45,820 nucleotides of DNA, taken from positions 1 to 45,820 of IMG/VR virus record IMGVR_UViG_3300007512_002803, one strand, 5' to 3'. Position 1 is the first letter of the stretch. Every line of letters starts with the position of its first letter. This stretch comes from a virus. Below, in pieces: positions 1 through 16,305 of this stretch. The position numbers and the translations under genes were made by a program. Under the pieces are notes generated by a model. That model ran no database searches. It was not told the origin of the DNA and was given only the letters and a program-made list of their open reading frames with translations.

Positions 1-432
1 ATTGCCAACGAAAATAAAGGGCATAACATCATCAAAGCAGCATGCTACTCGTTCGGAGAAGAAATTAGAATTGCGGGTTTCGAAAACAGGCTGCCCTACG
101 AAAGGATGCCTGAATTTTACCACTCTATTGATGTTGCCGTGTGCGCCTCGAGGCACGAAGGTGCACCTAATTCTATGCTAGAGGCCGGGTTGTGCGGTAC
201 TCCGATAATTACTACGCGCGTTGGCCAAATCCAGGAAATGGTCACGGATGGTCATAATGGTTTCTTTTGTGAGCGTAATAGCATGGATATTGCAAAAAAA
301 ATAGCTAAGCTTAGAGATGATAGACAGCTCTATGATGCAATGTCTAAAAACATATCTGAGACCAGTCACGAGTATGCCGAGTTGGCCGTAAAGCAGTGGA
401 GGGATTTCTTCGAGGAGGCCATCGGTGTTTAA
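1..432 (+). CDS. GT-B glycosyltransferase (GT4-like), C-terminal part
   Basis: The frame is open from the first base of the window, so this is the 3' end of a longer gene; 143 residues are visible. It looks like the nucleotide-sugar-binding half of a family 4 GT-B glycosyltransferase. The E-x7-E motif of that family is seen as E53 to E61 (RHEGAPNSMLEAGLCGTPII), followed by a typical V-x-E-M-V-x-D-G-x-N-G-F turn. Such enzymes transfer a sugar from a nucleotide donor to a growing glycan in the cytoplasm. The next gene starts inside its last codons, which points to translational coupling. The donor and acceptor sugars cannot be inferred. The internal ATG at 106 is not a credible start because it would remove half of the domain. 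Confidence 0.85.
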   Translation: MANENKGHNIIKAACYSFGEEIRIAGFENRLPYERMPEFYHSIDVAVCASRHEGAPNSMLEAGLCGTPIITTRVGQIQEMVTDGHNGFFCERNSMDIAKKIAKLRDDRQLYDAMSKNISETSHEYAELAVKQWRDFFEEAIGV

Positions 433-1171
433 CAGCCCATTCCAGCCGGTCGCTACATCTTCCGATGCACTGCAGCTATTGCCGATACCCTCGCCGGAGT
501 GGCAAAAAAAATTCACAGATTTGATGCAAGACGAGTATCTTTCGAGGAAATACAATCGCGACCGTCGCATACGAGATCACTACCAATACCTTCGCGATTT
601 ATGCCCCACTATATTTGATGCACAGGATGCGTGCAACTTAAAAGTGGTAGACATAGGACCAGGTCCCGGTGAGTTACTAGAAATTGCTAGAGACTTAGGC
701 TATAAGGCAGTTGGCTATGATGCAAAATTAGAAGATTGCGAAATGGGAGTCCCTTACATAGCATTGAGTGCTATGATGGCAGAAAGACAACAGTTGAACA
801 TCGAATACTGCGGCTTTGAAACGATCTTGCCTAACCTGCCAATAGAAGACGCATCGACCTTTTTGATTAATAGTCGTGGATCCATTGAGCAAGTATTCAA
901 AGGTCACTTGTTGGGTGTACCTCATAGAGAGCATCACGATGCTAGACGGATGACTTGGAGCATGTCAGCCGAGATGCTAGGCGACTTTAAAAATCTTTTC
1001 AGCGAAGCAGCTAGAATATTGGTGCCAGGCGGATATTTTCTAATTCACGGTAATGGAGCTACGAACATAGATGATTATCATCGAATGATCGTGCAGATCG
1101 TAGAGCAGAACCCAGTTTTAGTGTGTGACGGTACAGACAATCAGACTCTTCATAGAGTGAGAAAAACGTGA
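425..1171 (+). CDS. SAM-dependent class I methyltransferase
   Basis: 248 residues, starting with GTG and overlapping the upstream glycosyltransferase by 8 bases. Residues 74-88 (VVDIGPGPGELLEIA) form the glycine-rich SAM-binding motif I of class I methyltransferases, and Y-D at about 98-99 fits the acidic end of strand 2. Later, ARILVPGGYFLIHGNG matches the post-motif strand seen when a methyltransferase domain follows a Rossmann fold. The substrate is unknown; among glycosyltransferases it is most simply a sugar O- or N-methyltransferase. It is one of four methyltransferase-like genes in the island, which suggests a heavily methylated product. Confidence 0.75.
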   Translation: MFNSPFQPVATSSDALQLLPIPSPEWQKKFTDLMQDEYLSRKYNRDRRIRDHYQYLRDLCPTIFDAQDACNLKVVDIGPGPGELLEIARDLGYKAVGYDAKLEDCEMGVPYIALSAMMAERQQLNIEYCGFETILPNLPIEDASTFLINSRGSIEQVFKGHLLGVPHREHHDARRMTWSMSAEMLGDFKNLFSEAARILVPGGYFLIHGNGATNIDDYHRMIVQIVEQNPVLVCDGTDNQTLHRVRKT

Positions 1172-2013
1172 TATTCTATCCCCGCCCAGAGCAAGACGTC
1201 GCAGAATATACACTCGCCGTCATCGCTAGCAATAACGTGTATCAATATCTTCATCAACATGTTTTTTTTCTGTTAGCACGCGAGATAAAATTTAAGAATT
1301 TGGTTATCGGCGATGCCGGGCTTCTAGATGAGCAGAAGCATGGGTTACAGAATGCGCTAGGAGATCGGGTCAGTTTTATTGATTTCGAGACCAAAAACTA
1401 CGAAACAGATTTTAAAACGCAGAGCGACGAATATAGAAAAATAATTGATAACAGGATCGGTTTTTTGCGAGAGCTATTTTCGAACAGTGAAATTGACAAA
1501 GTATTGCAACTGGATGCCGACACGGCAATCATTCAAAACGATTTTAGAATGCTAGACAAAGATACGGACGTGAGCCTGACAGTCCGGCCGGTAACTCCTT
1601 ACGACCACATCTTAGGACAGTACCAAGTTGACTACCCTAATTGCGGCGTAATATTTTGGAATAACCCTAAGCAGTGTATCGATTTTTTGGATCATTGGGA
1701 ACTCTATAAAAACAGCAACCCTCCGAAGGGAGGACAGTATGAACAGAATTATTTTTTGCATGCATGCCTAGGAGAAGAGTTTCGCGCATTAAAAGTACAA
1801 AAAATACACTGTGCGTATTATAACTGCTACAATGCTGATTGGATTAATCCCCATACCTCGATATTACACTACAAAGGTAATAGCAGATTATTCGGCGCTG
1901 GCGGTGGCGCGTTTGAGGATAGAAGCGATTATTTGAACGAAAGGATTTTTGGAAAAAAGATTAGATTTAATTTCGAACCCTCAAGCGAAGAAAAGGTAAA
2001 CACAGATGAATAA
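1168..2013 (+). CDS. GT-A type glycosyltransferase
   Basis: 281 residues, GTG start in a four-base GTGA overlap with the previous gene. D116-A-D118 in the context VLQLDADTAII is the DxD metal and nucleotide-sugar site of GT-A glycosyltransferases, as in family 8 and related enzymes. The region after it (PNCGVIFWNN, then a late H in ILHYKGNSR) resembles the acceptor side and the C-terminal histidine of family 8-like proteins. No signal peptide or membrane segment is visible, so it probably acts in the cytoplasm. Donor and acceptor are unknown. The fold call is fairly secure; the family number is not. Confidence 0.7.
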   Translation: MIFYPRPEQDVAEYTLAVIASNNVYQYLHQHVFFLLAREIKFKNLVIGDAGLLDEQKHGLQNALGDRVSFIDFETKNYETDFKTQSDEYRKIIDNRIGFLRELFSNSEIDKVLQLDADTAIIQNDFRMLDKDTDVSLTVRPVTPYDHILGQYQVDYPNCGVIFWNNPKQCIDFLDHWELYKNSNPPKGGQYEQNYFLHACLGEEFRALKVQKIHCAYYNCYNADWINPHTSILHYKGNSRLFGAGGGAFEDRSDYLNERIFGKKIRFNFEPSSEEKVNTDE

Positions 2014-2362
2014 AGTAAAAACTGTTTTTTGTGACATCGATGGAACCCTGTTGCTCCATCATGGCGACCTACATAGACAGATGATATGTGATCCGGTGCT
2101 GTTAGAAGGAACAAAAGAAAAATTAGTCGAATGGGACAGAAAAGGGTATAACATAATTCTCACGACTGGAAGAAGAGAATCCTGTAGAAAAACAACCGAA
2201 GAACAACTGGATCAAGTTGGCATTTTTTACGACCAACTCATAATGGGTTTAGGCGGAGGCCATCGCGTATTAATAAACGATCTAAAACCAAACTCAGATA
2301 ACCCAACGGCTGCTTCTGTAACAGTCAAAAGAAACGAAGGAATTAAAGATGTTGAAATTTGA
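2006..2362 (+). CDS. Small HAD-family phosphatase
   Basis: 118 residues, overlapping the upstream gene by 8 bases. HAD motif I is seen as D10-I-D12-G-T-L, motif II as the T53/T54 region before GRRES, and an acidic motif IV near R-V-L-I-N-D92. It has almost no cap domain, like small phosphatases in sugar and polysaccharide clusters. With a SIS isomerase, a nucleotidyltransferase-kinase fusion and transketolase downstream, a role removing phosphate from a heptose or other sugar phosphate (the GmhB step) is attractive. GmhB proteins are usually about 180 residues and this one is shorter, so that role is inferred from context only. Confidence 0.7.
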   Translation: MNKVKTVFCDIDGTLLLHHGDLHRQMICDPVLLEGTKEKLVEWDRKGYNIILTTGRRESCRKTTEEQLDQVGIFYDQLIMGLGGGHRVLINDLKPNSDNPTAASVTVKRNEGIKDVEI

Positions 2363-2825
2363 GCATGTAAAAGACGAATCGATAAGAGAAGCGCTACGGG
2401 ACTATAAGGGCAAGATTGATGAAAAAAAGCCTGATGAACTTTCTTTAAGCACTTATAAGGTTGAAAAGCCGTGGGGGCACGAGATCTGGTTGGAGATGAA
2501 CGAATTTTATGCTTTAAAGCTCATCCACTTCAAGCAAGGAAATAGATGCAGTTTACAGCTTCATGAACGAAAACTTGAGTCTGTGTATGTTTTGAGCGGA
2601 GAAGCAGAAGTGTTTCTAGAAAACGAAGAAGGTAACATGGAATCTAAGGTTTATGGACCGGGCACCGGCTGGACAGTACCCACAGGGAAAAAGCACAGAG
2701 TTTACGCAAGAACAGACTTCACGATCTTAGAAGCACAATCGCCACACCTAAACGACATCATCAGATTTCAAGATGATAATCAGAGATCATCTGGTACCAT
2801 CAAGGCGGAGCATGAAGGCAACTGA
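2349..2825 (+). CDS. Cupin protein, mannose-6-phosphate isomerase type II-like
   Basis: 158 residues; the ATG overlaps the HAD gene by 14 bases. It has the single-domain cupin signature of the phosphomannose isomerase half of type II PMI/GMP proteins: K-P-W-G-H-E near residue 40, S-L-Q-L-H-E (the metal-binding histidine region), V-L-S-G-E-A-E, and P-T-G-K-K-H-R, ending with D-I-I-R-F-Q-D-D, which matches the family's E-D-I-x-R-x-x-D-D close. It could interconvert ketose and aldose sugar phosphates. Cupins of this type are also found as uncharacterised parts of glycan clusters, so the exact substrate is open. Confidence 0.7.
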   Translation: MLKFEHVKDESIREALRDYKGKIDEKKPDELSLSTYKVEKPWGHEIWLEMNEFYALKLIHFKQGNRCSLQLHERKLESVYVLSGEAEVFLENEEGNMESKVYGPGTGWTVPTGKKHRVYARTDFTILEAQSPHLNDIIRFQDDNQRSSGTIKAEHEGN

Positions 2826-4377
2826 TTATAAGTTGTGCATCTTGGCTGCCGGCAAAGGTACCAGGAATACGACTTACCAAAACCTGCATAAATCATTGCT
2901 GCCTCTAGGAAATAGACCGGTCATTTCTCGCATCATAGAGTTGGTGCCAGAACACGTGCCTGTAGTCATCGCAGTAGGTTACAAGAGCGAACAAGTCAAA
3001 GCATGCTTGAGCTACATATTCCCCAATAGAGAGATAGAGTTTGTCGACATAGAAAACTTTGCCGGTACTGCTAGCGGTCCCGGTCTGAGCCTGCTTGGTT
3101 GCAAAGAATATTTGCAGTGTCCTTTCATATTGTTAGGAGCCGATACTTTGGTTAGCCCAACAGAGCATGTGCTCATTCCAAACAAAGACTGGATCGGCGT
3201 GGGCAGCTGCTCCCGGTGGTGTGATAATACAGGCACATATTGTTTATACGATGAAGAAAAAGGCTTTTATTACGGAGAACAAAAAGGCGGATGGGAAGAA
3301 TGGGACAACTGCTTTATAGGTCTCGCCGGCATCAATGATTATGAAAAATTTTGGCAAAGCCTAGAAGACACTACTCTGATCGAAGGAGAGCACCAAATAC
3401 TCAACGGATTTACAAATCTGCAATCCACAAAAATAAAATTCGAATCTTGGAGAGACACTGGCAATAACATGAGTTACTCTTATGCGCGCAAAGAATACGA
3501 AGAGGTAGTCGAACCAAAATCTGACGAAGCCATTTACATCGATGGCAGCAAAGTCATGAAGTACTTCGATGATGCAAAAAAAGCAGCAGACAGAATTCTT
3601 CGATCCGATATATTGCAGCCGTACGTCCCACCGGTAATAAAGTTAGATTCTCACATTTATGGATATGAGTATATTCCGGGAACAAGGTTTTCTGATCTCT
3701 GCAATGTTCGATTGCTGGCTAGCTTTTTTGATTTTGTAAGAAAAATGTACTTAGATACAAGCTGCTCCTATAATGAAAAAGATTTCAGAAATAATTGTAC
3801 TAAAATGTACCAAGAGAAGACTTACGATAGAGTTAGAACGCACGATGAGTTAGATCGATTGGATTCGGTTGAGACTATCAACGGTAAACTAGTTCGCCCC
3901 ATTCACGACATGCTAGACGAAGTTGATTGGGACAATATTGTAGAAAGCGCAATCCCTGTAGTACTACATGGCGACATGTCTCCTGAAAACATAATCTATG
4001 ATTCTAGAAATGGTGAGTTCATTTTAATCGACTGGCGTGACAGGTTTGGGGGCGATCTTCATACAGGGGACGTTTATTACGATTTATGTAAATTAGATCA
4101 TGCCCTCTTGGTAAACGGAGAAGTAGTCAGAAAAAAGAGATTTAAGGTCTCTGTCCACGGTGTATCATCGTCAATAGAGATCGATATCAGATCTAACCTT
4201 GTAGATGCAAGAAGACTGCTAGAGTCCTTCTGTAATAACAACGGATTAGATTTCGAACACGTAAAATTATTGACAGCACTTACTTTGTTGAATATATCAT
4301 CGGTTCATAGCGATAAGAGTTTCAACAGGTTTTTATTCCTATACGGAAAACTACTTTTATCCGAGGCCTTAAATTAA
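2812..4377 (+). CDS. Sugar nucleotidyltransferase fused to APH/choline-kinase-like kinase
   Basis: 521 residues from the chosen ATG. That ATG lies 14 bases inside the previous gene and follows an AAGGCGGAG ribosome site; an earlier in-frame ATG at 2773 would add 13 unconserved residues. The N-terminal 230 or so residues are a nucleotidyltransferase: LAAGKGTR at 11-18 is the NTP-binding loop, followed by K-S-L-L-P-L-G-N-R-P. The C-terminal half is an aminoglycoside-phosphotransferase/choline-kinase fold: H386-G-D388-M-S-P-E-N-I-I is the catalytic loop and I-D407-W-R-D the metal site. One chain could phosphorylate a sugar or alcohol and then activate it as an NDP derivative. With the SIS gene directly downstream (stop and start abutting), NDP-heptose synthesis is one reading; a LicA/LicC-like amino-alcohol route is another. 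Confidence 0.8.
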   Translation: MKATDYKLCILAAGKGTRNTTYQNLHKSLLPLGNRPVISRIIELVPEHVPVVIAVGYKSEQVKACLSYIFPNREIEFVDIENFAGTASGPGLSLLGCKEYLQCPFILLGADTLVSPTEHVLIPNKDWIGVGSCSRWCDNTGTYCLYDEEKGFYYGEQKGGWEEWDNCFIGLAGINDYEKFWQSLEDTTLIEGEHQILNGFTNLQSTKIKFESWRDTGNNMSYSYARKEYEEVVEPKSDEAIYIDGSKVMKYFDDAKKAADRILRSDILQPYVPPVIKLDSHIYGYEYIPGTRFSDLCNVRLLASFFDFVRKMYLDTSCSYNEKDFRNNCTKMYQEKTYDRVRTHDELDRLDSVETINGKLVRPIHDMLDEVDWDNIVESAIPVVLHGDMSPENIIYDSRNGEFILIDWRDRFGGDLHTGDVYYDLCKLDHALLVNGEVVRKKRFKVSVHGVSSSIEIDIRSNLVDARRLLESFCNNNGLDFEHVKLLTALTLLNISSVHSDKSFNRFLFLYGKLLLSEALN

Positions 4378-5019
4378 ATGCAAACCTTAGAGACACTGAT
4401 CGATCTATACAAGAAAGAATCTGCTGCAGTATTCAGCAGCGTATCCAATGCTGAAATAATAGATTTCGTTGAAGTAGTATGGAAGACTTATCAGTCTGGA
4501 GGGACCGTATTTTCCTGTGGAAATGGTGGCAACGCAGGTTTTGTGGCCAACCTAGTATCTGACTTTGCACTTCACCCATTCGTAGGAGAGGATAAATCTA
4601 AAGCTATTAAGGCAGATAATAGGCTAGCTGTAATCGATCTCTGCGCCTCAAGCACCATGGTGACGGGGCTCCTCAACGACCTGGGTCCAGAATATATTTT
4701 TAGTGGGCAAATTGAAGTATATGCTAAGCCGGGAGATTTGATCATAGGATTTTCTGGCTCCGGCAATTCAGCAAATATTTTAGAAGCCTTTAAGAAAGGC
4801 AGAGAAAGGGGCACAGCTAATGTATTAATAACACGTAAACCGCGCATAAAATGTAGCCCACTCTGTGATGTTGTGGTTGAAGTCCCAGGCACATCTGTGT
4901 ATCCTGGCCAGACTGGAAAAAACGATAACAACTTTCATTTCGAAGATTGTTTGGCTAAAATAACCCATTTAGCAACTGGGATACTAAAAGGTAGAATTCA
5001 GGATGAGCTTCGATGTTGA
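4378..5019 (+). CDS. SIS-domain sugar isomerase, phosphoheptose isomerase (GmhA)-like
   Basis: 213 residues; ATG directly follows the TAA of the kinase fusion. The SIS fold is clear: F-S-C-G-N-G-G-N-A-G-F at 45-55 and G-F-S-G-S-G-N-S at 124-131 are the phosphosugar-binding loops, with a late F-E-D-C-L-A-K-I-T-H helix. This subgroup is usually annotated as D-sedoheptulose-7-phosphate isomerase in lipopolysaccharide clusters. By eye, the residues matching the E. coli GmhA catalytic Glu and His are not clearly kept (Asp and Leu at the aligned places), so the substrate should be treated as a phosphosugar, probably a heptose but not proven. Confidence 0.75.
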   Translation: MQTLETLIDLYKKESAAVFSSVSNAEIIDFVEVVWKTYQSGGTVFSCGNGGNAGFVANLVSDFALHPFVGEDKSKAIKADNRLAVIDLCASSTMVTGLLNDLGPEYIFSGQIEVYAKPGDLIIGFSGSGNSANILEAFKKGRERGTANVLITRKPRIKCSPLCDVVVEVPGTSVYPGQTGKNDNNFHFEDCLAKITHLATGILKGRIQDELRC

Positions 5020-5067
5020 AAAGTTTAGAATGCGCGTTTTTAAGTTTACGAGAAACTAAGGAATAAA

Positions 5068-5760
5068 ATGTACAGTTTAGGGCTAAATAAGAACTTTATT
5101 TTCGTTCATATACCCAAAACAGGCGGCGGAAGCATAAAAAATCATTTGATACATACGACCAAAAGAGAAAATTTATTCTATCCTAAGGATGGCACAATAA
5201 ATTCTAAAGCTGGTCAACTTTACCACGCACGCTTAGAGCACTATAAGAGCAGGCAGTTTGTCGACAGATTCGTCGTTGATAATATTGATGAGTTCTATAA
5301 GTTTACTTCGATTAGAAATCCATGGGAAAGAATGGTGTCTCTTTATCATTTTAGAAAGGGTGGTACAGATACAGCAGCTGATGTAGAAAATAAATCGTCG
5401 GATGTCATTGAAAAAAGAATAATTGATGATAAGTGGCCTATAGGAAAAAACCCAACTCTTAAAAACGATATAAGCTTCATCGATTGGGTCAAGAATTACC
5501 AAGAAAATATCAATGCAACTGAACTAACACAGTATCTAGATTTTTTTGATGCTCGAGCGATGTCAAAGATAGTCAGGTTAGAAAGCCTCGATGAAGACTT
5601 TAATGACGTCTGTGACGAATTGGGCATTCGAAAAAAGCCGCTATTAAAAATTCATGCCTCACAGCACGAGCACTACAGCGAATACTACAACAACGCTACA
5701 AAGGACATAGTTTATAAGCTGTTCGAAAAAGACATTGATTATTTTAGATATGAATTCTAG
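5068..5760 (+). CDS. PAPS-dependent sulfotransferase (Sulfotransfer_2 type)
   Basis: 230 residues. The 5'-phosphosulfate loop of sulfotransferases is seen at F12-V-H-I-P-K-T-G-G20, and the 3'-phosphate site at S81-I-R83-N-P-W-E-R. These are the two defining motifs of carbohydrate sulfotransferases using PAPS. No PAPS synthesis gene is visible, so the donor would come from the host. A 48-base gap precedes the gene, with AGGAATAAA as ribosome site. In this setting the likely job is to add sulfate to a sugar of the glycan made by the surrounding genes. There is no transmembrane anchor, so it probably acts on a cytoplasmic acceptor. Confidence 0.85.
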   Translation: MYSLGLNKNFIFVHIPKTGGGSIKNHLIHTTKRENLFYPKDGTINSKAGQLYHARLEHYKSRQFVDRFVVDNIDEFYKFTSIRNPWERMVSLYHFRKGGTDTAADVENKSSDVIEKRIIDDKWPIGKNPTLKNDISFIDWVKNYQENINATELTQYLDFFDARAMSKIVRLESLDEDFNDVCDELGIRKKPLLKIHASQHEHYSEYYNNATKDIVYKLFEKDIDYFRYEF

Positions 5761-5780
5761 AAAATGGCTCTAAGAAAAAG

Positions 5781-6569
5781 ATGACAAAACGTTCAATAAA
5801 AGCCGATGAATTGAGAAGAGTCGTTTTGGAAATGATCCATGCATCGGGATCGGGTCACGTAGGAGGATCCTTTTCCATTGCAGAAATCGTTGCATGTCTC
5901 TACAACAATTTTGATCTTAAAACCGGTAAAGAAGATAAACTTATTTTATCGAAAGGCCACGCCGTACCTGCAGTCTATGCGGCACTTCATTTATTAGGAG
6001 AGATCGATGATCAAGAACTTAGTTCTTTTAGACAGATCGATTCAAGGTTACAAGGCCATCCTGACAAAGTCAGACTTCCAAACGTAGTTGCAACAACAGG
6101 CTCGTTAGGCCAAGGCCTGAGCATAGCAATTGGCCACGCTTTAGCTCATAAAATTCTAAAAAACGACAGAAAGGTTTTTTGCATAGTCGGCGATGGAGAG
6201 ATGCAAGAAGGTCAAGTATGGGAATCTATCATGCTAGCACCGAAGTTCGAATTAGATAACTTGTGTATGGTCATTGATTTGAACGGAGCCCAAAACGATG
6301 GAAATGTCGACGACGTTTTGCCTTTAGGCATAGGACAACCGGTACAAAGCAAGATAAAAGCTTTTGGGTGGGATACGCACATAATAGATGGCCACGATTT
6401 AAGTTCGATCCAGAGTTTGATTACCACTCACTGCAGTGGAGCGCCTCGCTGCATCGTAGCAAAGACGCAGAAGGGGAAAGGGGTTTCTTTTATGGAAAGT
6501 TTCGAATGGCATGCGAAAGCTCCCAACAAGGAACAATACGATCGAGCGATCAAAGAACTAAATCGATGA
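5781..6569 (+). CDS. Transketolase, N-terminal (TPP-binding) subunit
   Basis: 262 residues, equivalent to the first third of a full transketolase. It shows S-G-S-G-H-V-G-G near 22-29, L-S-K-G-H at 56-60, T-G-S-L-G-Q-G at 106-112, and the thiamine diphosphate motif G137-D-G-E-M-Q-E-G-Q-V-W-E. The companion subunit follows with an ATGA overlap, so the pair is a two-gene transketolase as in some archaea and glycan clusters. Transketolase moves two-carbon units between sugar phosphates and can make sedoheptulose 7-phosphate, the substrate of GmhA-type isomerases. That links it to the SIS gene at 4378. Confidence 0.9.
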   Translation: MTKRSIKADELRRVVLEMIHASGSGHVGGSFSIAEIVACLYNNFDLKTGKEDKLILSKGHAVPAVYAALHLLGEIDDQELSSFRQIDSRLQGHPDKVRLPNVVATTGSLGQGLSIAIGHALAHKILKNDRKVFCIVGDGEMQEGQVWESIMLAPKFELDNLCMVIDLNGAQNDGNVDDVLPLGIGQPVQSKIKAFGWDTHIIDGHDLSSIQSLITTHCSGAPRCIVAKTQKGKGVSFMESFEWHAKAPNKEQYDRAIKELNR

Positions 6570-7513
6570 GCCTCAAAGCTACTAGGGATGGTTTTGGAGA
6601 AGCGATGGTGGATCTTGCCACGAGAGACGAGCGGCTGGTTGTTTTGAGCGCCGATCTTTCTAAAGCTACAAAAACTGCAGCTTTTGCAAAAGCATTTCCG
6701 GAAAGGTTTTTCGAATGTGGGATAGCGGAATGTAACGCGATTGGAATAGCGTCGGGTCTTTCTGAAAACGGTTTCTACCCTGTGTTTTCCTCTTTTGCTT
6801 CATTCCTAACAGGCAAGTACGACGTGATCAGGGTATCTCTTGCATATTCGAATGCCACTGTCCTATTAGTTGGTACTCACGCAGGAATGGCAATCGGCAA
6901 AGATGGGGTAACTCAAATGGGCTTAGAAGACGTCTCGCTCATGCGCGCACTTCCTAACATGAAAGTCTACCAACCGGCAACTGCAAATCAAACCAAGCAG
7001 ATGCTACGTGAAATTATTAAGCAGCCCGGCCCATCATACATTAGGATCGGCCGCCAGGCTGTAGCTGAACTTTTTGATGAAAAATCAAATATCGATCTGG
7101 GAAGTGCACAAGTGATATCAGATGATGGTGATGTCGATGTGTGCTTAGTCACATCCGGTTGTGTGTTACATGACGTCATGGATGCAGCCAAAGAGCTGAG
7201 AGCACAAAGCAAAAGGGTATCAGTCTTGAACATACATACCATAAAACCACTTGACGTCGCGGCCATAGAAAAGTACGCCAGAAAGGCAAAATTAGTCGCT
7301 GTTGTGGAAGATCATAGCATCATCGGCGGCCTAGGCTCAGCAGTGTGTGAAACGCTAGCAGAAACATATCCGTGCAGCGTTTTGCGCATCGGCCTAAACG
7401 ACGAATTTCCAGAGTCTGCTCCTCCGAATGATCTCTATGAAAAATACGGATTAGATTCTCGAGGTATTGTAAAAAAAGTCCAACAAAAGATCTGCCCCGA
7501 CCCGGGAGGGTAA
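6566..7513 (+). CDS. Transketolase, C-terminal subunit
   Basis: 315 residues from the ATG at 6566, which overlaps the stop of the N-terminal subunit in ATGA; the frame is open further upstream, but that stretch overlaps the partner gene and is not conserved-looking. It holds the pyrimidine-binding domain, with C-G-I-A-E55-C-N as the glutamate that activates thiamine diphosphate and S-S-F-A-S-F-L as the next block. A C-terminal domain follows (V-C-L-V-T-S-G-C-V, then V-V-E-D-H-S-I-I-G-G-L-G), as in DXS and transketolase C-termini. It should form a heterodimer or heterotetramer with the preceding product. A DXS-like reaction is less likely given the split layout. Confidence 0.9.
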   Translation: MSLKATRDGFGEAMVDLATRDERLVVLSADLSKATKTAAFAKAFPERFFECGIAECNAIGIASGLSENGFYPVFSSFASFLTGKYDVIRVSLAYSNATVLLVGTHAGMAIGKDGVTQMGLEDVSLMRALPNMKVYQPATANQTKQMLREIIKQPGPSYIRIGRQAVAELFDEKSNIDLGSAQVISDDGDVDVCLVTSGCVLHDVMDAAKELRAQSKRVSVLNIHTIKPLDVAAIEKYARKAKLVAVVEDHSIIGGLGSAVCETLAETYPCSVLRIGLNDEFPESAPPNDLYEKYGLDSRGIVKKVQQKICPDPGG

Positions 7514-7514
7514 G

Positions 7515-8672
7515 TTGCCACTACTACAAAAAAGAGAACGCTGCGTAGCTTGTCGTGCCGACCAATTCGAGGAAATTGTTACCTTTGACAGTTTTCCAGT
7601 TTACATGGGCGTTTCCACGAATGCAGACAAGAAAAACGACTTGTATGCAGATATGCTATGGGGATCTTGCACAAATTGTGGATTGGTCCAATTAATCAAT
7701 CTGATTGATTTAGAGATACTGTATCACAAAGGTCACAATCCTGCAATCGGCAAAACATGGGAGCGACACCATCGAGTGCTGGCCGAATTTATCAGAAGAC
7801 ATTCGGGTCAAAATATTTTAGAAATTGGAGGAGGAAATCTAAAGCTGGCAAACAACGTGTTGGAAGACAACTCTGAATTATTGTCTTATGACGTCTGTGA
7901 CAAGAATGAGTATGCTCACAGAAACTCGGACGATAGGATAAGATTTCATAAGGCCTTCTTTAGTGACAGTCTAAGCAAGGACATCAAATGCGATACCGTA
8001 GTCCATTCTCATTTGCTAGAGCACATCTACGATCCGATGTCCTTCCTAGTAGAGATTAATCAAGTACTTTTGTTGAACCAAAAAATGGTTTTTGCTGTTC
8101 CTGACGTAGGGATGTTGATCGAAAAGAAATACACAAACAGCATGAATTTTGAGCATACTTTTTACATAGACGAGCTAATTGTTGCTAACATGCTTAGCAC
8201 CACAGGGTTCATTGTTGATGAGATACAGCGGTTCAACGGGGACATCATGTTCATTGCAGCATCGAAGGCAAGAAACGTCCATGAAGTTCCGTCGTTGACA
8301 GGAGAGCCTGGACGGTATGCATATTCTGTCATCAATGTAACAGATTTTGTCAATTTTCACCAAAATGTAATAAATGCGTTAAATGACGTCATCAAAAACA
8401 GAGATGCATACGTTTTTGGTGCGCACATCTTTACCCAGTTTCTCTTATCATTCGGACTTAATACAGAAAAAATAATTTCCGTTTTGGACAATGACCCAGG
8501 CAAGATAGGCCACCGACTCTACGGGACCGATCTGCACGTAACATCACCCAAAGAGCTAAAGGATCAAAATGAGCCGGTTGTAATCTTACGAGCCGCTCAA
8601 TACAATGATGAAATAAGAAAGGACATAGAGGAAAACATTAATGAGAAAGTAAGATTCGTTACCGGCGAGTAA
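7515..8672 (+). CDS. Zinc-finger C-methyltransferase-like protein (NovU/TylC3 type)
   Basis: 385 residues with a TTG start, supported by a strong GGGAGGG ribosome site just upstream and by the first zinc cysteines lying only ten residues in. Three parts are seen: an N-terminal zinc-binding segment with C10-x2-C13 and C52-x2-C55, a SAM-binding methyltransferase core (N-I-L-E-I-G-G-G-N near 100, then H-S-H-L-L-E-H-I-Y-D-P), and a C-terminal Rossmann-like domain with V-F-G-A-H and V-L-D-N-D-P-G-K-I-G. This three-part layout is that of sugar C-methyltransferases acting on NDP-ketosugars, for making branched deoxysugars. The actual substrate is unknown. Confidence 0.8.
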   Translation: MPLLQKRERCVACRADQFEEIVTFDSFPVYMGVSTNADKKNDLYADMLWGSCTNCGLVQLINLIDLEILYHKGHNPAIGKTWERHHRVLAEFIRRHSGQNILEIGGGNLKLANNVLEDNSELLSYDVCDKNEYAHRNSDDRIRFHKAFFSDSLSKDIKCDTVVHSHLLEHIYDPMSFLVEINQVLLLNQKMVFAVPDVGMLIEKKYTNSMNFEHTFYIDELIVANMLSTTGFIVDEIQRFNGDIMFIAASKARNVHEVPSLTGEPGRYAYSVINVTDFVNFHQNVINALNDVIKNRDAYVFGAHIFTQFLLSFGLNTEKIISVLDNDPGKIGHRLYGTDLHVTSPKELKDQNEPVVILRAAQYNDEIRKDIEENINEKVRFVTGE

Positions 8673-8714
8673 TACGATCGCTCTTATTACAAGAATCGAA
8701 GGAGGCAACAAAAG

Positions 8715-9551
8715 ATGAGAGTAGCAGTTTGTTTGTTTGGCTTAGTGGGAAACGTTACAGCGAAGTCAGGGGTTGGCAATTCCGATGAAAAAATGCTGGA
8801 CGTTGCTATCAAAAAGTATAACAAAAATATTATTAGCCTAAACGATGTCGATGTTTTTTTACACACGTGGGATACTTCTATGGAGAAAGAAGTTCGAGAT
8901 GCTTTCCATCCGATGGATGCTGTCTTTCAAGAACAGAAGGTGTTTGATATCCCATCTTATGTTCAAGCAAAAGGTGCCCTCAATCCCGAGAAAAGAAAAC
9001 AGAATCATTATAGCATGTGGTACTCTATCAAGCAATCCGTAGCTCTAAAGCGCCAATGGGAAGAAAAGAATAAATTCCAATATGACTGTGTTATGATTGG
9101 AAGATTTGACACTGCTTGGGAAATTCCCGTGGATTTTTCTTCTTTTGACATGAATAAAGTCTATACCGGCCGGTGGTGTAAGCTGCTTCAGGATGGCGTG
9201 GATATTTTTGACGCCGGACGCGGCCCATATTTTCAGATTGAAGATCAACTCGACATGTCTCAAGTAAAGCATGTTCATAAGTTTGACGGCGATGTTCTGA
9301 ATCAAGGTCTTTCTTGTTTGTGGTTTTTTGGAAATTCTAAAGATATGGAAGAGTTTTCTTTGTTGTATGATCATCTAGACACATACGCCAAACCAGGGCA
9401 GTGCCCAACAATGGAAAATACTATTTCAAGCCACAGACTTTCTGAGTATCATTTAAAACAGTTGGGGTTATATGACAACCTAATTCGAGTTTTCCACTCT
9501 TCCACGGACTTCACCATGATAAGGATGAAGTATTTTGGGTCAAAAAAATAG
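8715..9551 (+). CDS. Putative glycosyltransferase-like protein of unknown family
   Basis: 278 residues with an AAGGAGG ribosome site, the clearest in this part of the window. I do not recognise a named family with confidence. It begins with a short hydrophobic strand (M-R-V-A-V-C-L-F-G-L), then V-D-V-F-L-H-T-W-D, and in the middle V-M-I-G-R-F-D-T-A-W. This pattern (an opening strand, D-x-F-x-x-T-W, then R-x-D) is seen in GT-A-like proteins of glycan clusters, where R-x-D sits at the donor site. No membrane segment is seen. The gene lies between a C-methyltransferase and an FkbM-type methyltransferase, which fits a glycan role. Confidence 0.5.
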   Translation: MRVAVCLFGLVGNVTAKSGVGNSDEKMLDVAIKKYNKNIISLNDVDVFLHTWDTSMEKEVRDAFHPMDAVFQEQKVFDIPSYVQAKGALNPEKRKQNHYSMWYSIKQSVALKRQWEEKNKFQYDCVMIGRFDTAWEIPVDFSSFDMNKVYTGRWCKLLQDGVDIFDAGRGPYFQIEDQLDMSQVKHVHKFDGDVLNQGLSCLWFFGNSKDMEEFSLLYDHLDTYAKPGQCPTMENTISSHRLSEYHLKQLGLYDNLIRVFHSSTDFTMIRMKYFGSKK

Positions 9552-9557
9552 AGTACG

Positions 9558-10154
9558 ATGAATGAATTAAAAAAAGTTGGCAAAAAAATATGCATTGATG
9601 CCGGAGCTCACATAGGCCAGTCTATAGACCGACTTCGCTCTAGATTTCAAGGAGAAGAGATCGAAATTTATTCCTTCGAACCCCACCCTAGATGTTTTCT
9701 AGCTGCAAAAACTAGAGCCAATAAAAACACGCACGTCGAAAATAAAGCAGTGTGGATTGAAGATGGAGAAATAGAATTTTATTGTGATGCCTTGGATTTA
9801 AACACCGATCGCCCTCTCCCGGGAGAAGCATCGACGATGTTCGAAGTTAAAACCAAGGAAAGATCACTCCCAGGACAATTTGATGCCGGTAGCAAAATAT
9901 CTGTGTCTTCATTTGATTTTAGCGCATGGCTAAAGAATAACTTTTCGAAAGAGGATTTTATTCATATCAAAATGGACATCGAGGGCGCTGAGTATCAAGT
10001 TTTAAAAAAGATGGCAAAAGATAATACGCTTTCTTATGTAAACGAATTAGATGTAGAGTTTCATTGGCAGGCGATCCAATTACCAAAGCACGAACATGAT
10101 GAGGTGGTCGAAATGCTTTCTAAGTTCAAAGTCAGCGTGACGATTCACGAGTAG
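9558..10154 (+). CDS. FkbM-family SAM methyltransferase
   Basis: 198 residues. It has the FkbM layout: C-I-D-A-G-A-H-I-G-Q-S at about 12-22 as SAM motif I, I-Y-S-F-E-P-H-P as the strand 2 acidic motif, and H-I-K-M-D-I-E-G-A-E-Y near residue 140, a hallmark of this family. FkbM enzymes O-methylate sugars and polyketides. It sits seven bases after the preceding gene and is followed by another methyltransferase-like gene. It could methylate a glycan hydroxyl, or perhaps the phosphonate alcohol made further downstream; that second idea is speculation. Confidence 0.85.
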   Translation: MNELKKVGKKICIDAGAHIGQSIDRLRSRFQGEEIEIYSFEPHPRCFLAAKTRANKNTHVENKAVWIEDGEIEFYCDALDLNTDRPLPGEASTMFEVKTKERSLPGQFDAGSKISVSSFDFSAWLKNNFSKEDFIHIKMDIEGAEYQVLKKMAKDNTLSYVNELDVEFHWQAIQLPKHEHDEVVEMLSKFKVSVTIHE

Positions 10155-10165
10155 GGCACCGCTCA

Positions 10166-10789
10166 ATGGGTATTCATAAAAAAGATCTTGTGTTAATTGA
10201 TAAGGCATTAGCAGCACAGAATAAAGATTTTCAAGATTTAAGCATGTGTGAACTGGGAAGCCAATCATTGAGAGGAGAGCTATCAGAAGCCTTCAAGAGC
10301 CCTAAAGAATATTTTCAATCGATAGGGTGCAAGCATGTATCAATTGATCTAAATGGCGAACGCAATGCTTTGCAGATAAATCTCAATCATGATCTTAGAA
10401 AAAATTATCCTATGTTTATGGGCCACTTCGATATGATAACCAACTTCGGAACATCTGAGCACGTGTTAGATCAATATCAATGTTGGAAAAATATTCATGA
10501 CTTAGTGAAGACAGGCGGATCAGTAGTAAACTCAGTACCAGAAGTAAATTCCTGGCCCAACCATTGTCAATATTATTATGATCTTACCTTTTTTCAAGAA
10601 CTCTGTGAAAAGTGTGACTATCAAATCGTTCAGAATTCAGTCTATGAAAACACTGAAAAAACTTCCTTAAATTTAATTGAGTGTGTCTTTATCAAACAGA
10701 TAGATGTGCCATTCATGAGCAGAGAAGAGTTTAGCATACTCACGATAATAAAAACCAACTTTTCAGATCCAGAGCAGTGGGGATATTGA
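10166..10789 (+). CDS. Methyltransferase-like protein
   Basis: 207 residues. A class I methyltransferase fold is suggested by M-C-E-L-G-S-Q near residue 28 (motif I), H-V-S-I-D-L-N-G (acidic end of strand 2), F-D-M-I-T-N-F-G-T-S-E-H-V (strand 4), and L-V-K-T-G-G-S-V-V-N-S-V-P (strand 5). Motif I is less glycine-rich than usual, so SAM binding is likely but not certain. The stop codon overlaps the ATG of the sulfatase-fold gene (TGATG), indicating coupled translation. Confidence 0.6.
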   Translation: MGIHKKDLVLIDKALAAQNKDFQDLSMCELGSQSLRGELSEAFKSPKEYFQSIGCKHVSIDLNGERNALQINLNHDLRKNYPMFMGHFDMITNFGTSEHVLDQYQCWKNIHDLVKTGGSVVNSVPEVNSWPNHCQYYYDLTFFQELCEKCDYQIVQNSVYENTEKTSLNLIECVFIKQIDVPFMSREEFSILTIIKTNFSDPEQWGY

Positions 10790-12225
10790 TGGAACACGAC
10801 ATATTCTGTGTAGCAACGGACCGACTTACAACCCATAGGATGGCTATATACGGTGGGTACAACATATTTCCTAACATTGACAAGATAGCAAAAAAAGGCA
10901 CGATATTCAAGCATCCTGTCGCGTGTTCAGCTTCTACGCTCTCTTGCCATGCCTGTGAATGGACTGGCAAGAATCCCTGGGAGCTCCATGACGAAATGGG
11001 AGTCCCTTACGAAAACAGAGACTACGACGTCCCAATCTCAGTCAGCAAGTCCTTGTTTACGGATCTGATCGAAATGGGTTACGATGTCAACTTAGTCTTC
11101 ATGCACAAGCCCGATAAGTACTTTCCTAGTTCGTATCAACAGATAATCCCTATATTCCAAGACGCCGGAGTCAACGTGCACGGGATTCCCGAGTGGGACA
11201 TCCCCCAAGGGTCTGGCATCAACAGAGCCAAGCACCTGATGTACTGTGCAGAGATCATCGAAAAAAATCGAAAAGCGGGTAAAAAGTCTTTCGTCTGGAC
11301 CAAGATAGCAGGAATGTATCAATCTCAAGATTCTGATGGAGCTATGATCCATTTAGGTCACAAATACCACTCGTATGCCGGGCAAACTCGAGTCACGAGA
11401 GATGACGTATGGCAGTGTGCACTAGACGAAGCCATAGGGAAGTTTCTAGAGTATTTCGGTTACGGTTCCCCTGATTCGACTTGTCCAGAAGTCGTTTTTT
11501 CCTCGGACCACGGTGCTTGGTACGGTGAGCGCGGTAACGTATACTACGGTTATGACTTACACGAAGAGATCATCCGAGTGCCTTTGATATCCTCATTCAG
11601 GCTACAACCGGATGGCACTCGCATTCAAGAAGGGCGATTTGCCACGATAGTGGATGAGCCGTTTAGCATGCGTAGATTCAGGGATTTCATTACCGAGAAA
11701 TACAGACCAGAAGTCGATAAAGAGGAGTTGATATATGCTGAGACGCTATTTCCGGGCCAAGTAGTCAGCTCTCCAGGCAGTAAGCACTCCAAGTCTAAAA
11801 CTTGCGTTAGAAAGGGGAAGTACAAGTACATTTACAACCCATTCGGCGAGGACGGCATGTCGGAAGTTCCCACTGAAGAGTTGTATGATATAGAATACGA
11901 TCCTCACGAGAAATTTAATCTGGCTAATCATAAAAACGAATGGTTCGACTGTTCTCGATCGGATCCGACAGTTGCATGCGACGGAAAGAGCGGCCTCAGA
12001 TACTGCGATGTCCTGTCTAGGTTCCACAGCGACGTCAACATCGTGACCAGCCCAGAAGACCCGCCTGAGGCCGAATACTGCACTAAAAAGAATCCCAACG
12101 AATCGGGTTCCGGAGAGAGGACCGGTTGGTCTGAAGTACAAGATGTATTGAACATTCTAAGAGCCGAAGTTAAAGATTTATGGTACAGGACCGGCAGAGC
12201 GAATTTTTATAGAGAGATGACATGA
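10789..12225 (+). CDS. Sulfatase-fold (alkaline phosphatase superfamily) hydrolase or transferase
   Basis: 478 residues from the ATG at 10789, which overlaps the previous stop in TGATG; an upstream GTG at 10777 is possible but less suited. Several sulfatase-superfamily blocks are seen: an early V-A-T-D11-R metal strand, Y-G-G-Y-N-x-F-P-N-I-D-K, the nucleophile region ending in T59-G60, S-S-D-H-G near 239-243, and [15 protein letters not shown] late, matching the L-Y-D-L-x-x-D-P-x-E-x-x-N-L signature of sulfatases. Aligned back from T-G, the nucleophile position is T50, not a formylglycine cysteine. Threonine-nucleophile members include phosphoethanolamine and phosphoglycerol transferases and some hydrolases. 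It has no membrane anchor. Its stop overlaps the start of the PEP mutase gene, so a role with phosphonate or phosphate esters is plausible. Confidence 0.75.
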
Positions 12226-13523
12226 GGAACAAGACGGTTTATGTGGGCATGTGTGCAGATCTTCTGCACGAGGGCCATTTGAACATTTTAAAGACGGCTT
12301 CTGAATTAGGCGACGTCACAGTCGGACTTTTAACCGATGAAGCAGTTGCTTCTTACAAGAGGGTACCTGCTCAAAACTTTAAAGCCCGTGCAGCCCTGGT
12401 CGGCAGCCTGAGGTTTGTGTCTAAAGTGGTGCCGCAAGACTCGCTGAGTTACATAGACAATTTGCGACTCCTACGACCAGATTTTGTGGTACACGGCGAT
12501 GATTGGAAGACGGGAGTACAGCAAAGGATACGTCGCGAAGTGATTAACGTCTTAGAAGAGTGGGCCGGTCAATTAGTAGAAGTTCCTTATACCGTCGGGG
12601 TATCATCGACACTCCTCGGTGAAAAGGTTCGTAGCATTGGAATTACGCCGGGAGAAAGACTCAAGAAACTAAGGTTGCTACTACAAAACAAAGGCATCGT
12701 AAGGGCCATAGAGACGCATAACGGGTTGACAGGATTGATCGCTGAAAAGACTTCCGCAGAGTTCAATGGAGACCTTCGAGAGTTCGATGCCATGTGGCTA
12801 AGTAGCTTAACACACTCAGCATCTCGTGGAAAGCCGGACATCCAATACGTGGATATAACTCTGATGTCTCAAACTATTGGAGAGATATTTGAGATCACTA
12901 CTAAGCCCATGATAGTCGACGCTGATAATGGCGGATTGACGGAGCACTTTCGGCTCATGGTAAAAACCCTGGAACGCTTGGGAGTCTCAGCAGTCATCAT
13001 AGAGGATAAGACTGGGATCAAAAGAAACTCCTTGTTCGGTACTAGCGTAGAACAAACACAGGCAGACGTTCAAGACTTTTCTTCCAAGATTTCAGCTGGT
13101 AAAAGAGCGCAGGTTTCCGATGGGTTCATGATCATTGCTAGGATAGAAAGCCTGATCTTAGGCAACGGCTTAGAAGATGCCCTCAGCCGCGCGTACGCGT
13201 ACATTGAAGCAGGCGTGGATGCTATTATGATTCATAGCAAGTCAGACGTTGCAGACGAGATCCTGGCTTTTCTAAAAGAGTTTAGAAGCCGAGATCAAGA
13301 TACACCGGTTGTAGTGGTACCTTCTACCTACAGTCGGATTACCGAAACCGAACTGAGTGCAGCAGGCGCAAACTTAGTGATATATGCAAACCACCTCTTG
13401 CGCAGCGCGTACCCTGTCATGGTTTCTACGGCTCGTTCAATACTGGAAAACGAGAGATCACACGAAGCCAGCCCAGCATGCATTTCTATCGGTGAAATAA
13501 TCAGGCTCATCGGTGATTTTTAG
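12222..13523 (+). CDS. pepM: Cytidylyltransferase-PEP phosphomutase fusion
   Basis: 433 residues, start in an ATGA overlap. Residues 1 to about 135 are a cytidylyltransferase of the glycerol-3-phosphate/phosphocholine type: H16-E-G-H19 is the HxGH site, and Y-T-V-G-V-S-S-T replaces the usual R-T-x-G-I-S-T-T. Residues about 150-433 are PEP mutase: F-D-A-M-W-L-S-S, V232-D-A-D-N-G-G for the metal-binding aspartates, and E261-D-K-T-G-I-K-R-N-S, the E-D-K-x5-N-S signature that separates PEP mutase from isocitrate-lyase relatives. The mutase turns PEP into phosphonopyruvate, forming the C-P bond; the cytidylyltransferase would later load the finished phosphonate onto CMP. The next three genes supply the middle steps. 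Confidence 0.93.
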
Positions 13524-13525
13524 TC

Positions 13526-13939
13526 ATGACCGGCACGATGGCAGAATTGACTAACTTAGGTGTCCTAAAAAATCACACTTTTTTTAGTGGCGTTCCTGAC
13601 AGTTTACTTGCTGTTTTTATTGATGCTATCAAAGACAGGAAAGAGGCTCAACACGTTCCGGCTGTCAACGAAGCACACGCGATCGCAATTGCATTCGGTG
13701 CCATGTTAGCCGGCGAAGATGCGTGCGTGTATCTCCAAAACTCCGGGTTGGGCAACATCATTAATCCCATTACCAGTCTTTGCATGCCCGCGCAGATTTA
13801 CCCGTTTTTGATCATCGGTCATCGTCACACTCTGGAGCAACACCTTATAATGGGCGAGCTAGACGAGAAGATCATGGCGCTTTTAGGGTATCCACAAGAC
13901 AGGTACTTTCTCGTCCACGGCGACAATAATGAAAAGTAG
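13526..13939 (+). CDS. Phosphonopyruvate decarboxylase, alpha (PYR domain) subunit
   Basis: 137 residues, two bases after the PEP mutase stop. It matches the N-terminal pyrimidine-binding domain of thiamine diphosphate-dependent phosphonopyruvate or sulfopyruvate decarboxylases: F-S-G-V-P-D-S at 20-26, V-N-E49-A-H-A-I-A-I-A with the cofactor-activating glutamate, and L-Q-N-S-G-L-G-N-I-I-N-P, a block typical of this group. The enzyme decarboxylates phosphonopyruvate to phosphonoacetaldehyde, which pulls the unfavourable mutase reaction forward. The usual single-chain enzyme is about 380 residues; here the two halves are separate genes totalling 294. Sulfopyruvate decarboxylase is the alternative, but PEP mutase next door argues for phosphonate. 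Confidence 0.88.
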   Translation: MTGTMAELTNLGVLKNHTFFSGVPDSLLAVFIDAIKDRKEAQHVPAVNEAHAIAIAFGAMLAGEDACVYLQNSGLGNIINPITSLCMPAQIYPFLIIGHRHTLEQHLIMGELDEKIMALLGYPQDRYFLVHGDNNEK

Positions 13940-14402
13940 ATCTCAAGCGATCGAGGAAGTGTTCGAAACCCACGGTTCTAGTGCGATATATATAGTATCG
14001 ACAGGTTACCTTTCTAGAGCGGTGCATTCCTCACGGCCGACAGATCCTAACATATTTTACATGAAAGGCAGCATGGGTCTTGCACCCGGGATCGGTTTGG
14101 GTATTTCTTTGAATTCTGACGCAGACGTTGTTGTTCTGTCTGGAGATGCATCACTATTGATGCACTTGGGGCTTACTCACACCATTAGAGATTTTGCTAG
14201 AGGCAACTTGCATCTTTACGTTTTTGACAACGGGTGCCACGAATCGGTAGGTGGACAATTGTGTGCTAGCCTGGAACCTGCTTACCCAGGCGTACAAAAG
14301 ATAATTTTTATCAACAAGGAAGGAAAGACTCCACGCGTAAAAATAGGTTTCAAAGAGAACGCCGATCAGCTAAAAAAAATTCTAGCACAAGCATCGATAT
14401 AA
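13929..14402 (+). CDS. Phosphonopyruvate decarboxylase, beta (TPP-binding) subunit
   Basis: 157 residues, overlapping the alpha subunit by 11 bases in the +1 frame with its own ATG. The thiamine diphosphate diphosphate-binding motif is seen as G72-D-A and then, after the usual spacing, F-D-N101-G-C-H-E-S-V-G-G-Q. M-K-G-S-M-G-L-A-P-G-I-G-L-G-I-S before it is typical of the PP domain in this enzyme group. It should pair with the preceding product to form the active site at the subunit boundary, like the two-chain sulfopyruvate decarboxylase of archaea. A sequencing frameshift of one long gene cannot be ruled out, but the clean ATG and overlap favour two real subunits. Confidence 0.87.
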   Translation: MKSRSQAIEEVFETHGSSAIYIVSTGYLSRAVHSSRPTDPNIFYMKGSMGLAPGIGLGISLNSDADVVVLSGDASLLMHLGLTHTIRDFARGNLHLYVFDNGCHESVGGQLCASLEPAYPGVQKIIFINKEGKTPRVKIGFKENADQLKKILAQASI

Positions 14403-14403
14403 A

Positions 14404-15180
14404 ATGTTGTTAGTTTGTTCTAAGTCGACGCGAGAGTTTTTCCCTCACATTAAAAATGCCAGGATTATTTCTAGACGATTAGATCTGAAAATAGTAGAAG
14501 AGACCGGCCAACATCACGACATACTCGCTGTCGGCGGTGGAGCAGTCATCGATGCTGCAAAAATTCTATCTGCGGACCCCATTGTGTGTTATCCCACTAC
14601 AGCTGCCGGGTCATCATGCACTATGCATTCTGTGGTATGGGACCAAGATCGAAAAATATCCGTAAAAAGATTCGTTCCTAAGGAGGTGATCGTAGAGCCA
14701 GAGTTTCTCAAGAATCTGCCGAAAGAAATCGTTTTTGAGACCAAAGTTGATCTTGTGGCACATTGTTTCGATTCATTGTTTTCGAAACGAAGCACTCCTA
14801 AAAGCAGAAAACTGGCCGAAGCTGCTTTGGAAATGTTAGAGGACAGGAATTTGAGTAACGAGTCACTCATTATCGCCGGTAATTTGGCTGGAAGAGCGAT
14901 ACAGATTACTCCGACAACGATCTTGCATTCTCTATCTTATCCATTGACCGGTCATTATGGCATCCGCCACGGCCGAGCATTGTCGTTTTTTTTGCCAGCT
15001 CTTTCTGATTACATGGGATTCGAATTCGAAAAATATTTTGTAGAGGATTTCGATAAAGTGCCCAGTCATATCGATATTGAAGATTGTTTGAGGGGTGCGA
15101 TGTCTTACGATAAGATAAACGATTTTCGATCTAGAGATCAACTAAATTTTCAATTTTTAAAGAATCTTTTATGTTTGTGA
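14404..15180 (+). CDS. Iron-alcohol-dehydrogenase-type phosphonoacetaldehyde reductase (short)
   Basis: 258 residues; starts one base after the decarboxylase stop. Group III alcohol dehydrogenase motifs are present: A-V-G-G-G-A-V-I-D-A-A-K at 42-53 for NAD(P), Y-P-T-T-A-A-G-S-S at 63-71, D116-L-V-A-H120 and H175-S-L-S-Y-P-L-T-G-H184-Y-G-I-R-H189-G for metal. Its place after PEP mutase and phosphonopyruvate decarboxylase predicts reduction of phosphonoacetaldehyde to 2-hydroxyethylphosphonate. The family is usually about 370-400 residues; this one lacks much of the N-terminal nucleotide-binding part and the last helices. It may be a trimmed but working phage version. Confidence 0.82.
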   Translation: MLLVCSKSTREFFPHIKNARIISRRLDLKIVEETGQHHDILAVGGGAVIDAAKILSADPIVCYPTTAAGSSCTMHSVVWDQDRKISVKRFVPKEVIVEPEFLKNLPKEIVFETKVDLVAHCFDSLFSKRSTPKSRKLAEAALEMLEDRNLSNESLIIAGNLAGRAIQITPTTILHSLSYPLTGHYGIRHGRALSFFLPALSDYMGFEFEKYFVEDFDKVPSHIDIEDCLRGAMSYDKINDFRSRDQLNFQFLKNLLCL

Positions 15181-15222
15181 TAAGCAACGATATCGAGTTG
15201 ACAAAGTCAGCGGATTAGTAAT

Positions 15223-16257: not shown

Positions 16258-16305
16258 AGAGTTGTGTACTCTAATTTATATTAGAAGAGTGAAGGTTGTT
16301 TGAGC

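Follow-up and report, generated by a model that had tools for sequence, protein, structure and literature searches.

A conserved viral operon with a split transketolase and a GmhA-fold isomerase as a candidate route to an activated sugar

Which sugar is made by a block of sugar-phosphate genes set among the glycosyltransferases of a virus? The question arises at positions 2006-7513 of the IMG/VR virus record IMGVR_UViG_3300007512_002803, analyzed here over all of its 45,820 nucleotides (the window). Baseplate wedge homologues at 26.5-28.9 kb indicate a contractile-tailed phage, and a glycan-gene island occupies the first 22 kb. The block runs on the plus strand, its genes mostly overlapping or abutting, in the order HAD phosphatase, cupin, fusion of a nucleotidyltransferase with an APH kinase (NT-APH), SIS-domain isomerase, sulfotransferase, and the N- and C-terminal subunits of a transketolase (TktN and TktC; Table 1). 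A preliminary description had proposed a phage route to an activated heptose, based on the transketolase subunits, the SIS protein, the kinase-nucleotidyltransferase fusion and the HAD protein; family searches confirmed each of these domains, the HAD weakly. The cupin and the sulfotransferase, located in the same interval, were absent from its list. We consider it probable, judging from gene content and conservation, that the operon makes and activates, by a route of its own, a sugar destined for a glycan of the surrounding glycosyltransferase island.

The grouping of these genes is more than chance, given the recurrent six-gene order. Nine other viral-type loci have exactly the order HAD-cupin-NT/APH-SIS-TktN-TktC: L016-L021, L026, L028 and L011/L012, the last two taken as a single locus. 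The L016 contig ends inside TktN, while L028 belongs to a bacterial bin (TMED198), yet its neighbors resemble those of L017 and L018. Two further viral loci, L004 and L007, have the cupin, SIS, TktN and TktC genes together and NT-APH several genes off. Separated at a pairwise SIS identity of roughly 70%, the copies fall into about seven lineages, of which the window represents one. The first-gene HAD proteins of the other viral loci are 49-64% identical to that of the window, and the cupins of 11 other loci are 50-61% identical. The G+C content of the relatives is 29-39% compared to 47% in the window; therefore, the operon is present in phages of differing base composition. A sulfotransferase gene stands between SIS and TktN in the window and in no other copy. 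In the Pelagibacterales genome G490 (locus L134), the cupin, a KdsC-like HAD, NT-APH, SIS, TktN and TktC are consecutive on the chromosome, with 33-41% identity to the window for all but the HAD. The strict order in the nine viral-type loci and the chromosomal copy of the module in Pelagibacterales support a single pathway.

Viral contigs scanned with a single SIS or NT-APH protein gave no matches, and the relatives could be reached only with alignments; further viral contigs were gathered with alignments of the cupin, SIS and NT-APH. The named-phage collection yielded no transketolase-type operon; the best SIS matches in it had 26-29% and the best cupin match 36% identity. The papers searched (on transketolase with phosphoheptose isomerase, capsule and pelagiphage, subscription literature being outside the scope) held no description of the operon.

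Besides the gene order, the partners of NT-APH showed a clear pattern across a comparison set of 29 loci with NT-APH, 27 of which entered the tests; as the loci are of limited extent and the rows are related, the Fisher tests serve only for orientation. TktC was present in 12 of the 13 loci with SIS, while the thirteenth, L016, is the one that ends at a contig edge inside TktN. A GatZ/KbaZ-like aldolase (PF08013) was found in one of the 13 SIS loci compared to all 14 loci without SIS (Fisher 7e-7, again for orientation). This aldolase replaces SIS and transketolase in Pelagibacterales, Legionella, Roizmanbacteria and an archaeon. The association of SIS with transketolase, near-exclusive of the aldolase, suggests that the step forming the carbon-carbon bond is exchangeable. 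All 27 loci encode an HAD protein of one of two unrelated types, PNKP-like or KdsC-like, and never both (for L149, the PNKP-like assignment is weak, at 16 bits), which fits the need for a phosphatase step. The simplest reading would be a pathway in which the carbon-carbon bond step is exchangeable, the isomerase goes with the transketolase, a phosphatase is needed and the kinase-nucleotidyltransferase stays constant.

The NT-APH clusters with the aldolase include viral ones as well; its genes were located at L017:13971-14921, L002:16539-17483, L006:10563-11504 and L036:7426-8592, as well as in L146-L152, mostly instead of SIS and transketolase. A fusion of the nucleotidyltransferase with an HAD of the same family lies beside a separate kinase, read by eye as APH-like, at L002:11509-12567, L005:5002-6057 and L006:13041-14093. 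The three activities are thus also joined in another arrangement, and this counts for one pathway. In Enterococcus phage 9183 (L003:7642-9617), the HAD and NT-APH genes stand among nucleotide-metabolism genes, with neither SIS nor transketolase; therefore, these two genes alone do not imply heptose.

Is the isomerase a GmhA? Its predicted structure (predicted local distance difference test score, pLDDT, 86) had only GmhA proteins as best PDB matches, with template-modeling (TM) scores up to 0.77 by query length. The best NCBIfam match was likewise TIGR00441, with 70 bits compared to a curated cut-off of 209.45. In the numbering of E. coli GmhA, all 12 SIS copies have N, D and E in place of the zinc ligands H61, E65 and Q172, while the fourth ligand, H180, is kept; further changes are T120G and D169F, and D94 and the phosphate-site serines S121 and S124 are kept. 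Thus, an earlier caution that the protein lacks some of the E. coli GmhA catalytic residues was well placed. The H61N change and a conserved segment, PGQxGxNxxNFxxED, are peculiar to this SIS group among the sequences compared. In the study of B. pseudomallei GmhA, the four zinc ligands were described as completely conserved in orthologues, the H64Q mutant was left with 14% activity, and Q175E was described as inactive (PMC5705639). The SIS protein of Caulobacter phage Cr30, annotated as phosphoheptose isomerase and separated by a single small gene from one annotated as heptose kinase, has D and E at positions 65 and 172. Therefore, E65D and Q172E alone do not exclude sedoheptulose 7-phosphate or heptose.

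In the tree, the SIS copies formed a clade of their own (100/100) on a stem of 1.86; the deeper branching was unresolved, and the bootstrap had not settled. The preliminary description had regarded grouping with non-heptose isomerases as evidence against its proposal. The copies did stand apart from the heptose isomerases, but they did not join any characterized non-heptose isomerase. Of the cut-off, the residues, the tree and the fold, the fold alone agrees with GmhA; by its zinc ligands and its score, the protein is not a GmhA orthologue. An identity with KdsD/GutQ, the arabinose 5-phosphate isomerase, was rejected, as these proteins are very distant in the tree. Genes labeled phosphoheptose isomerase in phages S-CAM1 (L114:5718-6041) and Sf-CH8 (L099:4658-5008) were rejected as evidence for heptose since they encode only 107-116 amino acids. 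The Sf-CH8 product reads as HAD-like, and PHROG 1238, which bears the same name, weakly matches the window HAD. Both labels are likely misannotations.

The transketolase has kept its thiamine diphosphate and catalytic residues, H26, H66, H100, D155, E160, N185, H261 and E411, and R358, R520, H461 and D469 are kept in the window TktC; R358 and R520 hold the acceptor phosphate. The donor-site residue H473 (E. coli TktA) is Gln in all 11 operon TktC copies tabulated, and the G490 copy, read by eye, has TQ at this place. Conversely, His is kept at this site in four other split transketolases and in a second, distant TktN/TktC pair of L004. That pair (L004:6261-7998) lies upstream of NT-APH, is 36% and 31% identical to the window subunits, and has lost H461. 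The Gln at this position suggests a changed use of the donor. In L007 (6530-7885), TktN carries a C-terminal extension, methyltransferase-like by eye, and is 452 amino acids long in total.

The fusion protein was similarly intact. The nucleotidyltransferase signature GxGxR...K was found with G13, G15, R17 and K26 invariant, and the APH motif HGDxxxxN and the downstream metal-binding Asp with H385, G386, D387 and D406 invariant and N392 in nearly all copies; the IDWR motif is kept as well. The match to PF01636 agrees with the earlier caution that the kinase is of the APH rather than the GHMP or ribokinase type. The scan of proteins encoded from 425 to 17148 gave no GHMP (HddA) or PfkB (HldE) kinase match, and the operon has no orthologue of HddA, HldE, GmhB or HddC. 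In the AlphaFold model (pLDDT 88), the nucleotidyltransferase part is nearest to the IPCT and LicC folds, with MurU and HddC close behind; the TM scores by target were ≈0.75 for PntC and for the CTP:inositol-1-phosphate cytidylyltransferase, 0.75 for LicC, 0.68 for HddC and ≈0.66 for MurU. This ranking of modeled folds does not decide the substrate. A profile search of the PDB gave no close relative of the kinase part. The Pfam matches of the HAD were weak (HAD_PNKP 9.5e-6, just under the cut-off), and against the PDB it was nearer to Pnkp-type phosphatases (Pnkp1, 2.2e-6) than to GmhB (only 0.13). The kept catalytic residues of the transketolase, nucleotidyltransferase and kinase, along with the GmhA fold of the isomerase, count for a dedicated pathway to a nucleoside diphosphate (NDP) sugar.

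We infer the reactions, their order, the nucleotide and the chain length of the sugar from these gene assignments. TktN and TktC would move a two-carbon unit onto an aldose phosphate to give a ketose phosphate, which SIS would isomerize to an aldose phosphate, the cupin, a possible sugar isomerase or epimerase, perhaps adjusting a center. Removal of the terminal phosphate by the HAD would come next, followed by phosphorylation of the anomeric hydroxyl by the APH domain, in the order of MupP and AmgK, or else the kinase would act before the phosphatase, as it does for heptose. Finally, the nucleotidyltransferase domain would add the nucleotide. A C7 or C8 sugar is favored and C5 or C6 is possible; length and stereochemistry are not readable from the sequence.

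Among known systems, the lincomycin octose pathway, in which LmbN has a SIS fold, is the best-fitting precedent in logic: a dedicated carbon-carbon enzyme is followed by an isomerase, a kinase, a phosphatase and a nucleotidyltransferase. There, the carbon-carbon enzyme is a transaldolase and the nucleotidyltransferase a guanylyltransferase, and LmbR/LmbN/LmbP/LmbK/LmbO work in series to make the guanosine diphosphate (GDP) octose (PMC4351081). The operon differs in having a transketolase in place of the transaldolase, and the lincomycin guanylyltransferase and kinase are separate proteins. The GDP-D-glycero-D-manno-heptose pathway (GmhA, HddA, GmhB, HddC), of which Cr30 with its annotated GmhA and heptose kinase is a phage-borne example, likewise combines a SIS-fold ketose-phosphate isomerase, a 1-kinase, an HAD phosphatase and a nucleotidyltransferase. 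However, the operon SIS is not a GmhA orthologue, its kinase is APH and not GHMP, its HAD is PNKP/KdsC-like and not GmhB, its nucleotidyltransferase is fused to the kinase, and a dedicated transketolase and a cupin are added.

MupP is an HAD phosphatase, AmgK an APH-type anomeric kinase and MurU a nucleotidyltransferase. Their succession (PMC5371407) resembles the activation end of the operon, while that system recycles N-acetylmuramic acid 6-phosphate with unfused enzymes and has neither SIS nor transketolase. Choline activation by LicA and LicC shares the LicC-like cytidylyltransferase fold, but its substrate is choline and it lacks HAD, SIS and transketolase; the LicA kinase has the APH fold. 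Bacterial split transketolases resemble TktN and TktC in being separate subunits with conserved catalytic residues, unlike them in having His at position 473 in those compared. The best reading of these likenesses is that the operon parallels the GDP-heptose and GDP-octose pathways and yet is a separate enzyme set.

Outside the six shared genes, the neighborhoods vary. An AroE-like gene was present in 10 of the 12 transketolase-type loci extending past TktC and absent in the window and G490. It directly follows the operon at L011:11303-11935 and in the same place in L017-L021, L026 and L028, and was also seen at L013:9320-10087 and L014:11885-12688. Its product has kept the catalytic Lys and Asp, and its nearest solved structure is HI0607. 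The 5-ketofructose reductase 7cok belongs to the same family, and a sugar substrate thus has a precedent (see also PMC7954740). In the window, a C-methyltransferase gene occupies the place that the AroE-like gene has in other phages; its relatives adjoin NT-APH in L034 and L148, share a locus with it in L032, L149 and L151, and are frequent in bacterial NT-APH clusters. A split transketolase with an AroE-like protein also occurs in a 3-amino-5-hydroxybenzoate-type pathway. This candidate, considered on account of the AroE-like gene, was dropped because the window has no AroE-like gene; no neighbor resembling DAHP synthase or dehydroquinate synthase was noticed, with no search aimed at them.

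Further downstream, positions 12222-15180 hold phosphonate genes: a cytidylyltransferase-phosphoenolpyruvate (PEP) mutase fusion (369 bits with TIGR02320, exceeding its cut-off), a two-subunit phosphonopyruvate decarboxylase and a short iron alcohol dehydrogenase. These gene families suggest a glycan decorated with hydroxyethylphosphonate. The fusion (12222-13523) was rejected as a heptose enzyme, as it is a PEP mutase fusion followed by the decarboxylase halves; its N-terminus scored 60 bits against the HldE adenylyltransferase model, below the cut-off of 181. At 16300-17148, a UDP-glucose dehydrogenase-like protein of 282 amino acids has Pfam matches to the first two domains, and the C-terminal domain seems absent.

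Table 1. Genes of the operon and the gene that follows it in the window.
Feature	Position	Strand	Evidence
Small HAD phosphatase, PNKP-like, 118 aa	2006..2362	+	motif I DIDGT, motif II TTGR
Cupin, mannose-6-phosphate isomerase C-terminal (MannoseP_isomer) type, 158 aa	2349..2825	+	PF01050 3.4e-9
NT-APH fusion, 521 aa from ATG at 2812	2812..4377	+	PF12804 (NTP_transf_3) + PF01636 (APH)
SIS-domain isomerase, GmhA fold, altered metal site (N/D/E/H for H/E/Q/H)	4378..5019	+	SIS_2 9e-10
Sulfotransferase (Sulfotransfer_2)	5068..5760	+	PF03567 8.9e-14
TktN (Transketolase_N)	5781..6569	+	PF00456 5.7e-37
TktC (Transket_pyr + Transketolase_C)	6566..7513	+	PF02779 1.8e-40, PF02780 1.7e-26; ATGA overlap with TktN
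C-methyltransferase, Methyltransf_14 type	7515..8672	+	PF13489, PF08484

A route to NDP-heptose, the product proposed at the outset, would be a special case of the dedicated pathway, in which the transketolase gives sedoheptulose 7-phosphate, SIS converts it to heptose 7-phosphate, and HAD and NT-APH complete NDP-heptose. The fold and best family match of SIS, its kept phosphate-site serines and H180, and the shared D and E of the Cr30 protein all speak for it, and sedoheptulose 7-phosphate is a standard transketolase product. On the other hand, this compound is already a housekeeping metabolite, so that heptose synthesis should not call for a transketolase of its own, let alone one altered at the donor site. 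With three zinc ligands altered, the family score far below the cut-off, the isomerase in a clade of its own and the other heptose enzymes missing from the operon, we regard this product as unlikely. Thus, the proposed module of transketolase, SIS, kinase-nucleotidyltransferase and phosphatase stood as a conserved unit, while the SIS evidence and the types of kinase and HAD spoke against heptose. NT-APH could instead be a LicA/LicC-like unit making a cytidine diphosphate alcohol or polyol, with SIS and transketolase serving only a polyol precursor or another sugar. Choline kinases are among the APH kinases, the PntC and LicC folds scored above those of HddC and MurU, and AroE-like dehydrogenases accompany many copies. 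However, the differences in fold scores are small, the PDB profile search yielded no close kinase relative, and no choline-type transporter or transferase was seen beside NT-APH, which makes such a unit improbable.

We give still less credence to the idea that transketolase and SIS do not share a pathway with NT-APH and that frequent exchange holds together a loose surface-glycan island. The distance of NT-APH from the other genes in L004 and L007 and the unrelated glycan genes abounding around the block are what it would predict; the strict six-gene order with overlapping genes in several SIS lineages is not, nor is the bacterial copy, which keeps the order NT/APH-SIS-TktN-TktC. Some observations do weigh against a dedicated NDP-sugar pathway. 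Since the aldolase-type clusters are without SIS, NT-APH may have more than one kind of substrate, and the HAD and NT-APH pair of Enterococcus phage 9183 could be a general activation unit independent of SIS and transketolase. The nucleotidyltransferase fold is slightly nearer to cytidylyltransferases that act on alcohol phosphates, and the end product of the window may differ from that of the loci with the AroE-like gene.

The chemistry of large marine-phage glycan islands is mostly guessed from annotation; here, the operon is delimited by conservation and the predictions at the enzyme level are concrete. More tentatively, and with somewhat less than even confidence, we suggest that viruses and SAR11-type bacteria share a pathway for an undescribed activated sugar, which may be an octose or have a long, branched chain. 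Such a pathway would employ a transketolase and a GmhA-fold isomerase with co-changed substrate-facing residues, and an aldolase could take over its carbon-carbon step. If the reading as a dedicated NDP-sugar pathway is right, the handful of routes to long-chain NDP-sugars would gain a transketolase-based branch, and the operon would offer a tractable entry to surface sugars common to uncultured phages and abundant ocean bacteria.

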